Shown piece by piece: positions 2,855 to 7,657 of a stretch of DNA of 60,055 nt. The stretch spans positions 1 through 60,055 of the forward strand of contig PUNJ01000104.1 in assembly GCA_003551705.1 (NCBI GenBank), given 5' to 3'. Made by a program: the position numbers and the translations under genes. Within the stretch, counting starts at the first letter, position 1; every line of letters begins with the position of its first letter. The DNA is from Chloroflexota bacterium. Lineage in GTDB: Bacteria; Chloroflexota; Dehalococcoidia; UBA2247; RBG-13-53-26. Below the pieces are notes generated by a model that was not told the origin of the DNA, made no database searches, and saw only the letters and a list, made by a program, of their open reading frames with translations.

Positions 2855-2880
2855 CCAGTTGTCAGGAGAAGGAGGAGAGA

Positions 2881-3615
2881 ATGTCTCTGGTAGTCACGAG
2901 TTACGTGCCCGAGGGAATAGTATTGGCCTCGGATAGCCGCCAGTCGATCACCGTCGAAAGGAAGGGCCAGGCCGACAAGGGCTTCAAGGTTGAGACGGTG
3001 AACTCCGATAATGTAATGAAGACCTTTCTGGTGGAGCAGCATGGCATAGGTATATCAACCTTCGGGGTCGATTTGCTGGAGGGTGCGCCCATGTCCAGTC
3101 ACATAGAGAGATTTCTTGAAGAGGAGTGGAGCAATCTGGAGTCTGTGGCGTCCATGCCTGAGAATCTGATTGCCTACCTGCGCAGATCCTTTCCCAATGC
3201 CGACGTGGGTTTTCACGTGTGCGGCTATATGAAGACGGGCAAGGTCAGTGTGCCCCACGTCTATCACTGCCACGTAAGCAAGAACATAGTAGAGAGAAAG
3301 AACGTGAAGCCGGACGGGGCCATCGCTTATGGAGCCCTTTGGTCCGGACAGATCGACATCATCACGTCCATAGTCAACCCGGTCATGGCCAAGGATGCAT
3401 CCGGCGCCGAGAAGGTACTGCGGGCTCCAGCACCCATCCTGTGGAATGCCATGACCATCCAGGATGCCATAGATTTCTCCGTTTACGCCATCAGGACCAC
3501 GATCGATACGATGCGGTTCCAGGCTCGGCCCAAGAACGTGGGCGGCCCAATCGATATCCTGTTGTTGACTGCAAACGGTGCCAGGTGGATTGCCAGGAAG
3601 GAATTGCACGCGTGA
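2881..3615 (+). CDS. Proteasome-fold Ntn-hydrolase-like protein with candidate N-terminal Ser nucleophile
   Basis: Start at 2881 after AGGAGGAG; mature N-term SLVVTSYVPEGIVLASDSRQS aligns by eye with proteasome beta T1...D17xR19; C-term VGGPIDILLLTANGARWI resembles the proteasome beta C-terminal strand. Confidence 0.6.
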   Translation: MSLVVTSYVPEGIVLASDSRQSITVERKGQADKGFKVETVNSDNVMKTFLVEQHGIGISTFGVDLLEGAPMSSHIERFLEEEWSNLESVASMPENLIAYLRRSFPNADVGFHVCGYMKTGKVSVPHVYHCHVSKNIVERKNVKPDGAIAYGALWSGQIDIITSIVNPVMAKDASGAEKVLRAPAPILWNAMTIQDAIDFSVYAIRTTIDTMRFQARPKNVGGPIDILLLTANGARWIARKELHA

Positions 3616-5238: not shown

Positions 5239-5608
5239 GGCCAGCGGGCTCCGGGTTATCGTCGTTATTGCTTCCTCGGTCTTTCGTAAACACCCTTTGC
5301 GGGGCGTTCCTTGCATGGGGTGCGATATACAGTGGCTTGTTTTAGGTAAGGGACGACCAGCGGGAGCATTTAATTGCTTTTCTTGCTCGACCGTGAGCTC
5401 CAGTGCCGGGCTCTCGCGCAGATGATATTTGGTTACTCAGGTGGGAGCGGGACCCAGGCCCTGAGTCCTCCCGAATACGGCGGCGTGCGGTCGGGTGTTT
5501 AGGATGCTATAATAACCTGTGATCACGGTGTACAAGCCGGCCTGAGCACGCCAGGTCTACATAAATCCCCCTATGAAACTCTTTAGACATCGCACCAGGA
5601 GGTCCAAA

Positions 5609-6481
5609 TTGACAAGCAAGGGTTTTGACCAATTCCAAGGCTCGAATGAGTATGTTTCCGACGAAATGCTGAGGAATGCTGTAAATGTCTGCATAGCTCT
5701 CAAGAGGCCATTATTGGTCAGGGGCGAACCGGGTACGGGCAAGACCATGCTGGCCCATAGCATCGCCAAGGGATTAGACAAGTCCCTTCTTATCTGGAAC
5801 ATCAAGTCCACCACCAAGGCGCAGGAAGGCTGTTACGTTTATGATACCGTACAAAGGTTGAATGACAGCCGCTTTGGCGATAGGGACATCTCGGATATCA
5901 AGCAATATATCAAACTGGGGAAACTTGGGCAGGCGTTCGCCTCACCGGAGCAGGTGGTCCTGCTGATCGACGAGGTTGACAAAGCGGACCTTGAGTTTCC
6001 CAACGACCTGCTCAATGAGCTGGACGAGATGAGCTTCTTCATTCCCGAAACTCACGAGACGATCAAAGCTATACAACGGCCCATAGTCATCATCACCAGC
6101 AACGCTGAGAAGGAACTGCCGGATGCCTTCCTGAGACGGTGTGTCTTTCACTATATTGCTTTTCCGGACCCGAGCCTTATGGAGCAGATTGTCAAGGTGC
6201 ACTTCCCGGAAGTGCAGGATAACCTGTTGCGTGAAGCACTGAAAACCTTCTATCGGCTGAGAGAGTTTGAAGACCTCAAAAAGAAACCCTCCACCTCCGA
6301 GCTATTGGACTGGCTGAGGGCGCTCATAATGGGAGGAATAGCTCACGACAGGGTATTCAAGGAAGTACCTTACCTGGGCAGTCTCCTGAAGAAGGAATCC
6401 GACCACGACCTGTTTCTGGTCCAGCACCTGGGCAGGAGACGGCCCGGACGCCAGGGCGATCTCTACCGGATGCTGTATTAG
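5609..6481 (+). CDS. MoxR-family AAA+ ATPase
   Basis: Walker A GEPGTGKTML, Walker B VVLLIDEVDKAD, sensor VIITSNAEKELPDAFLRRC; TTG start at 5609 preceded by AGGAGGT; the ORF-track ATG is 5573. Confidence 0.85.
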   Translation: MTSKGFDQFQGSNEYVSDEMLRNAVNVCIALKRPLLVRGEPGTGKTMLAHSIAKGLDKSLLIWNIKSTTKAQEGCYVYDTVQRLNDSRFGDRDISDIKQYIKLGKLGQAFASPEQVVLLIDEVDKADLEFPNDLLNELDEMSFFIPETHETIKAIQRPIVIITSNAEKELPDAFLRRCVFHYIAFPDPSLMEQIVKVHFPEVQDNLLREALKTFYRLREFEDLKKKPSTSELLDWLRALIMGGIAHDRVFKEVPYLGSLLKKESDHDLFLVQHLGRRRPGRQGDLYRMLY

Positions 6482-6490
6482 GATTTTCGC

Positions 6491-7657
6491 ATGTTCACTG
6501 ACTTTTTCTACATTCTGAAGAAAAGGAAAGTGCCTGTTTCCATCACGGAGTGGATGACCTTGATGGAGGCCCTCTCCAAAGGGCTTATTTCCAACTTGGA
6601 CGATTTCTACGTGCTGGCCAGGGCCATCCTGGTCAAGAACGAGGTCTTCTTCGACGACTATGATCTGGCTTTTCAGGAGTTCTTCACCGGCCTGGAAATG
6701 CCGGTTGATCTGGACGACAAGTTCATGAAATGGCTCAGCGATGGCAAGAAGCTTGAAGAGATCATGACGCATCCAGGTGAGTTTGATATGTGGGAACTCG
6801 AAGAGATGATGCGTGAGTTTGAGAAGAGGATGGCCGAGCAGAACGAGCAACACGATGGAGGTGGTTACTGGATAGGCCGAGGCGGGACCAGCCCCTTTGG
6901 CCATTCGGGCACTCATCCTGCCGGAATCAGGATAGGCGGGCAATCCAAGGGGCGGGGAGCTATCCAGATAGCCCATGAGAGACACTTCAAAAACTATCGC
7001 AACGACCTGACCCTTGATGTTCGCCAGATCAAGGTGGCCCTGAAGCCGTTGAGAAAGCTCAACCGCATAGGGCCCGAAGATGAGTTGGACCTGGACGGTA
7101 CCATAGATGCCACAGCCAAGAATGCCGGAGACATAGAGATGCGCTGGATGCGCAGTCGCAGGAACGCCGTTAAGGTCCTGCTATTGATGGACTCGGGTGG
7201 CTCCATGGAACCCTTTGCGGATGTATGCAACCAGCTCTTCTCCGCAGCCCATTCCAGCGCCCATTTCAAGGACTTCAAATACTACTACTTCCATAACTGC
7301 ATTTATGAAAATGTATACGAGGACATGGAAGGCCAGGTCCTGGTGAGCACCGACTCTCTTTTACACAACTTGGACAAGGACTATAAGGTAGTGTTTGTCG
7401 GCGATGCAAGGATGGCCATGTCCGAGTTGACGGCACGTTACGGCGCCATATACTACTACCACCGCAATGAGATTCCCGGTATCGTGTGGTTGAAGAAGCT
7501 GGCGGACCATTTTACGCATTGCATCTGGCTGAACCCCGAGGGAGAGCGCTACTGGAACCATCCTACCGTCCAGATGATCGGCCAGATCTTCCCGATGTAT
7601 GAAATGACTCTGGATGGCCTCAATGACGGAGTCAGAAAACTCATCAAGAAGAAATAG
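6491..7657 (+). CDS. VWA domain protein, CoxE-like
   Basis: 9 nt after the MoxR gene; MIDAS-like LLLMDSGGSMEP, FVGDARMAMSEL, C-terminal GIVWLKKLADHFTHCIWLNPEGERYW. Confidence 0.8.
   Translation: MFTDFFYILKKRKVPVSITEWMTLMEALSKGLISNLDDFYVLARAILVKNEVFFDDYDLAFQEFFTGLEMPVDLDDKFMKWLSDGKKLEEIMTHPGEFDMWELEEMMREFEKRMAEQNEQHDGGGYWIGRGGTSPFGHSGTHPAGIRIGGQSKGRGAIQIAHERHFKNYRNDLTLDVRQIKVALKPLRKLNRIGPEDELDLDGTIDATAKNAGDIEMRWMRSRRNAVKVLLLMDSGGSMEPFADVCNQLFSAAHSSAHFKDFKYYYFHNCIYENVYEDMEGQVLVSTDSLLHNLDKDYKVVFVGDARMAMSELTARYGAIYYYHRNEIPGIVWLKKLADHFTHCIWLNPEGERYWNHPTVQMIGQIFPMYEMTLDGLNDGVRKLIKKK

Follow-up and report, generated by a model that had tools for sequence, protein, structure and literature searches.

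We propose, at a probability of roughly 0.78, that the gene at positions 2881–3615 of the forward strand of the window (the whole stretch of DNA analyzed, 60,055 nucleotides) encodes a propeptide-less Ser/Thr N-terminal-nucleophile (Ntn) hydrolase of a proteasome-like family, placed in or beside the PMI group. The proposal for this protein of 244 residues draws on its fold, as predicted with AlphaFold2 (AF2) and compared by Foldseek, the conservation of the catalytic positions in 56 non-redundant homologues, a direct Met-Ser/Thr start, the relationships of the family and its operon contexts, which are of the housekeeping type in several lineages. The family is unannotated in the libraries that we searched, and it belongs to a broad set of proteasome relatives, nearly all uncharacterised, that has already been described.

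Reading frame and predicted fold

The N-terminus of the product is MSLVVTSYVPEGIVLASDSR. A Shine-Dalgarno sequence (AGGAGG, 2870–2875, forward strand) lies 5 nt 5' of the ATG, and the start is kept across homologues; together these fix the start at 2881, and thus the protein has no propeptide. Indeed, an ATG, GTG or TTG stands immediately 5' of a Ser or Thr codon in all 56 non-redundant homologues, every homologue with an intact 5' end begins in this way, and a propeptide of the 20S beta type is absent. The suggestion of an earlier note on this DNA that there is no propeptide is thereby borne out. Comparison with the nearest homologue gives 63/37/130 changes at the three codon positions and a dN/dS of ~0.09 (with dS near saturation), indicating that the frame is under protein selection.

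We found no match for the window protein in Pfam (PF00227 included), NCBIfam or PADLOC, and since a sequence search of the PDB returned nothing significant, the fold was settled by structure comparison alone. The AF2 model, built from a 62-sequence alignment, reached a pLDDT of 91.7 and a pTM of 0.88. Against the PDB, Foldseek returned 325 matches at E<=0.001, the best 50 of which are all proteasome entries, with TM scores of 0.48–0.61 by query and 0.50–0.72 by target; the top matches are 20S proteasome chains (best E 1.9e-8, probability 1.00), aligned over nearly the whole chain. Among viral models the best match is a siphovirus "proteasome beta type-2" protein (E 2e-11, TM 0.70). A superfamily profile that pools the window family and its more distant relatives gave matches to archaeal 20S alpha/beta subunits (E 8e-9) and Anbu (E 9e-9), and in its alignment D18, K47 and G62 (Met1 numbering) stand opposite their 20S counterparts. 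Thus, the proteasome fold proposed in the earlier note, and homology with it, are supported by two routes, comparison of the predicted structure and the superfamily profile. In PHROGs we obtained only a weak match to phrog_5990 (E 0.027), a family of uncharacterised function that all 18 members of the family alignment touch at E up to 1, and tblastn with the window protein gave no match in phages or plasmids.

The model contains helices 1 and 2 of the proteasome core (residues 71–81 and 92–103) and departs from it in two insertions. Residues 21–42 (2941–3006, forward strand) form a lengthened beta hairpin, with strands at 21–27 and 35–42 of lower pLDDT (76–78), which adds ~13 residues between Asp17 and the catalytic Lys: the interval is 29 residues instead of 16, exactly the insertion that had been anticipated from the sequence. 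Residues 168–181 (3382–3423, forward strand) form an extra beta hairpin (strands 168–171 and 177–181) between helices 3 and 4 (159–165 and 193–211), a position that argues against assembly into a standard double ring. No helix is predicted past residue 211, and the chain ends after its last strand, at residue 238 of 244.

Nucleophile, active site and proposed chemistry

The conservation observed in the 56 homologues (representatives sharing <90% identity) is far beyond chance. Invariant in all of them, in Met1 numbering, are D18, S19, R20, D43, G57, G156, Q194, D195, G221, G222 and D225. The N-terminus and the spacing of the catalytic positions are as claimed in the earlier note, in that S1, D17, R19 and K46 of the mature protein correspond to S2, D18, R20 and K47 counted from Met1, and all of the segments it had pointed to were found. 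Of the four positions expected to be invariant, D18 and R20 are so (56/56), and the other two admit exceptions.

Position 2 is occupied by Ser in 53 homologues and by Thr in the remaining three, with no other residue seen; a nucleophile that is "Ser, not Thr" therefore holds for the majority and not as a rule. The two residues together make up ~25% of the background at this position in ATG open reading frames led by a Shine-Dalgarno sequence at the same loci. In the window the codon is TCT (2884–2886, forward strand), which would become Ser1 of the mature protein and is the predicted nucleophile. Across the family the Ser is encoded by TCN and AGY alike, with six changes of codon class and three Ser/Thr changes on the tree. 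A single-base route between TCN and AGY passes through Thr (ACN) or Cys (TGY), and all three Thr members carry ACA. Methionine aminopeptidase also accepts Ala, Gly, Val, Pro and Cys at position 2, so the restriction to hydroxyl residues among the homologues points, indirectly, to this residue as the nucleophile.

The remaining catalytic positions can be assigned by alignment to the proteasome beta subunit. Asp18-Ser19-Arg20 (2932–2940), all on the forward strand as are the features that follow, supplies Asp17 and Arg19 in beta numbering and is invariant. Lys47 (3019–3021) is the equivalent of Lys33 and is a Lys in 55/56, with Arg in a single member (L029). Gly62 (3064–3066) is equivalent to Gly47 of the oxyanion hole and is kept in 49/56; the other seven (L069, L070, L072, L073, L078, L079 and L086), which belong to one Chloroflexota clade, have Asp in this column and still have Ser1, Asp17 and Lys33. 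Toward the C-terminus, the motif GGPID (3541–3555) ahead of the last pair of strands matches S10 of proteasome beta, with G221, G222 and D225 conserved throughout. The counterpart of proteasome Ser129 is not conserved (Gly, Ser or Ala at position 155), and the exact counterpart of Asp166 in the window family is uncertain.

A product that had lost catalysis and served as a structural subunit, as proteasome alpha does, might account for the higher score of the 20S alpha profile over the 20S beta profile against the window family, as well as for the Asp in place of the oxyanion Gly in one clade and the Arg in place of Lys in one member. We regard this as highly improbable, however, given that Asp17 and Arg19 are kept in 56/56 and Lys33 in 55/56, and that position 1 admits nothing but Ser or Thr, for which there would be no reason in a dead protein.

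The protein is instead most likely a Ser/Thr Ntn amidohydrolase matured by methionine aminopeptidase; from sequence and model we infer removal of Met, the chemistry, hydrolysis in preference to ligation and the kind of substrate. Methionine aminopeptidase would remove Met1 and expose Ser1, whose hydroxyl would attack an amide carbonyl, with its own alpha-amino group acting as the base and the Lys/Asp pair lowering the pKa. The backbone NH of Gly62 would stabilise the oxyanion, and the acyl-enzyme would then be released, most likely to water. By analogy this mechanism has good support. We would expect the protein to act on a narrow range of substrates, as a peptidase or amidase, and not as a bulk degrader. 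Several considerations tell against this reading: the oxyanion Gly is replaced by Asp in one clade, the counterpart of Ser129 is not conserved and that of Asp166 is uncertain, and published assays of BPH and Anbu detected no peptidase activity although their sites are intact.

Place among the proteasome relatives

Compared with the 20S beta subunit (PF00227), the window family shares the fold, the position of the nucleophile, Asp17, Arg19, Lys33, Gly47 and the C-terminal strand, but has no propeptide, mostly uses Ser, carries two insertions and does not match the PF00227 model. With HslV it has in common the class of fold and an N-terminal nucleophile; the profiles, however, give no usable match (hhalign E 0.62), and since the genome of the window encodes a separate HslV (L114), identity with HslV is ruled out. 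Like Anbu, the family lacks a propeptide and has Thr/Ser1, Asp17 and Lys (with the superfamily profile match given above), but the AF2 model is devoid of the C-terminal helix 5 that forms coiled coils in Anbu, which rules out this identity as well. BPH likewise has no propeptide, and Ser1 is reported for every BPH that does not come from Betaproteobacteria, as well as for one Anbu and for CodW/HslV (PMC5777263); by description, BPH is a compact protein of group I without inserts, unlike the window family. Neither Ser1 nor the absence of a propeptide is therefore new in the proteasome family.

The connectases (PF09894) require closer comparison, because a connectase-like enzyme would be a specific protein ligase or transpeptidase, in which Ser1 would take up a recognition sequence as an acyl-enzyme and transfer it to an amine. 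In all 11 connectases that we extracted, the start codon is followed at once by Ser and then by an xxGxVMASDxR stretch like that of the window family, with which they align over the N-terminal 20 residues (hhalign E 1.6e-4); moreover, the insertion between Asp17 and Lys33 falls at the site of the specificity insert of connectase (PMC8665760). The Pfam connectase model, on the other hand, does not match the window protein and is not significant for any of 18 members (best E 0.18). The AF2 model has helices 1 and 2, which connectase lacks, and its insert is a beta hairpin and not a helical pair, and no partner protein is conserved. The helices and the lack of a Pfam match exclude identity with connectase, and we consider such ligase activity very unlikely.

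The nearest proteins outside the core family start MTIVVTVKVNDGIVLASDSA (hhalign E 1e-48); further relatives are proteins that start MSLGVVIKGPEGIVLA (E 2.5e-34) and a MTLIINVTTPEGIVMASDSRQS protein of Methanosphaera (E 7e-27). A survey by Fuchs, Alva and Lupas in 2021 described 22 uncharacterised proteasome-like subfamilies, wrote their triad as Thr1/Ser1, Asp17 and Lys33, and located inserts of connectase and of PMI-5/6 in the interval between Asp17 and Lys33 (PMC8665760). Our nearest relatives, among them proteins of the pattern MTI..V.DGIVLASDSA.. and the Methanosphaera protein, carry inserts in the pore loop and also between helices 3 and 4, an architecture that agrees with what has been published on PMI ("multiple insertions"), and we have taken them to be PMI members. 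By its architecture set against that description, the window family would lie in or beside this group. It shares with PMI and group II the proteasome beta core, Thr1/Ser1-Asp17-Lys33-Gly47, the lack of a propeptide and a prokaryotic distribution, and with PMI the insertion between helices 3 and 4 (hairpin 168–181); it differs in having no long pore-loop insert and in being centred on Chloroflexota and Caldisericota. Identity with PHD of the Deltaproteobacteria is unlikely as the centre of gravity of the family, as close members were found in 2 of 297 genomes of the L084 phylum. Thus, the claim of a family "distinct from HslV, Anbu and BPH" stands with respect to the genome's own HslV and to Anbu, but not as a claim of novelty, further proteasome-like subfamilies having been described in 2021 (PMC8665760).

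Besides HslV, the genome of the window encodes a second uncharacterised proteasome-like protein (L115, contig C49:1863–2360) that starts MATTLLIGTRCADGVVIASDK; it matches PF00227 below cut-off (E 0.005) and, with Thr4 taken as residue 1, has Asp17 and Lys33 in place.

Distribution, gene neighbourhoods and possible partners

The Ntn gene was found in 16 of the 100 genomes of relatives searched (one of these, G031, having a distant relative only); the 16 include 9 of the 10 genomes sampled from the GTDB family to which the window belongs, its own genome among them. A scan of genome contigs yielded 127 confirmed relatives, 80 of which were retained, mostly from Chloroflexota (Dehalococcoidia and others) and Caldisericota. 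Singletons appeared in MAGs of Cloacimonadota, Patescibacteria, Aminicenantes, Actinomycetota, Thermoplasmatota and Desulfobacterales, and some of them may be binning artefacts. The core family forms one side of a well-supported branch separating it from the distant relatives (SH-aLRT 99).

In Dehalococcoidia the gene (X) sits in a tight operon, dapF-X-dapL-hflX; in another Chloroflexota clade (L068, L069 and L070) it stands between ribD and riboflavin synthase, with 2 nt separating it from ribD in L069 and L070 and 0 or -4 nt from riboflavin synthase; and in Caldisericota it follows ahcY (gene names being read from the sequences). An amidase acting on a small metabolite and not on proteins, as many other Ntn hydrolases do, would suit such metabolic operons and also the absence of peptidase activity in relatives with intact sites. 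The operons vary by lineage, however, with no single metabolite in common, and the fold is nearest to proteasome subunits and not to metabolite Ntn hydrolases, judging by the top PDB matches; we hold this alternative possible, if rather unlikely. That the partners differ between lineages suggests that these housekeeping contexts provide steady expression and do not mark a single pathway.

No window neighbour of the Ntn gene recurs at the locus of any homologue. A gene for an uncharacterised B12-binding radical SAM protein (TIGR03960; 1043–2854) lies 26 nt upstream. Farther downstream are a MoxR-like AAA+ ATPase (5573–6481), which the model for MadB family ATPases matches in part and below cut-off, and, after it, a CoxE-type VWA protein (6491–7657); as partners these two were rejected, being common to no homologue's neighbourhood. 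In a single Anaerolineales MAG a JAB/JAMM-domain gene (PF14464, E 5e-24; L051:1313–1705) immediately precedes the Ntn gene.

In three divergent members, a gene with a product of ~245 residues begins 6–35 nt downstream of the Ntn gene (L024:6051–6797; L050:1248–1982; L035:10775–11518). Two of the three exceed the cut-off of the Pfam model for Cthe_2314-like HEPN proteins (E 3e-7 and 1e-8), the third matches it weakly (0.07), and an Rx4H motif is present in each. A HEPN profile search of the 100 relatives' genomes recovered exactly two copies, both adjoining the Ntn gene, and none was present in 400 evenly drawn Chloroflexota genomes. Each of the three copies initially came to light through inspection of the surroundings of the Ntn gene; the genome searches then turned up none elsewhere. 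The window has no HEPN gene. In L024 the HEPN gene interrupts an operon, between the Ntn gene and dapL, whose counterparts in relatives lack it; this likewise argues that HEPN is tied to the Ntn gene. As few copies are known, the association remains a lead. We tentatively raise the idea, itself quite unlikely, that in this subset the Ntn hydrolase and the downstream HEPN protein (Rx4H) make up a two-gene module in which the enzyme would process or control the HEPN ribonuclease. The 2021 survey found no handle on the function of the uncharacterised subfamilies (PMC8665760). The HEPN-linked subset is a concrete one, and the module, if true, would give one uncharacterised proteasome-like subfamily its first functional partner.

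Prokaryotic proteasome-like homologues are widespread, and to our knowledge function is known only for the proteasome, HslV and connectase. The family described here is compact, propeptide-free and set within housekeeping operons, and almost every genome sampled from one GTDB family carries it. These features, together with its natural Ser/Thr swap, make it well suited to the question of why the proteasome settled on Thr.
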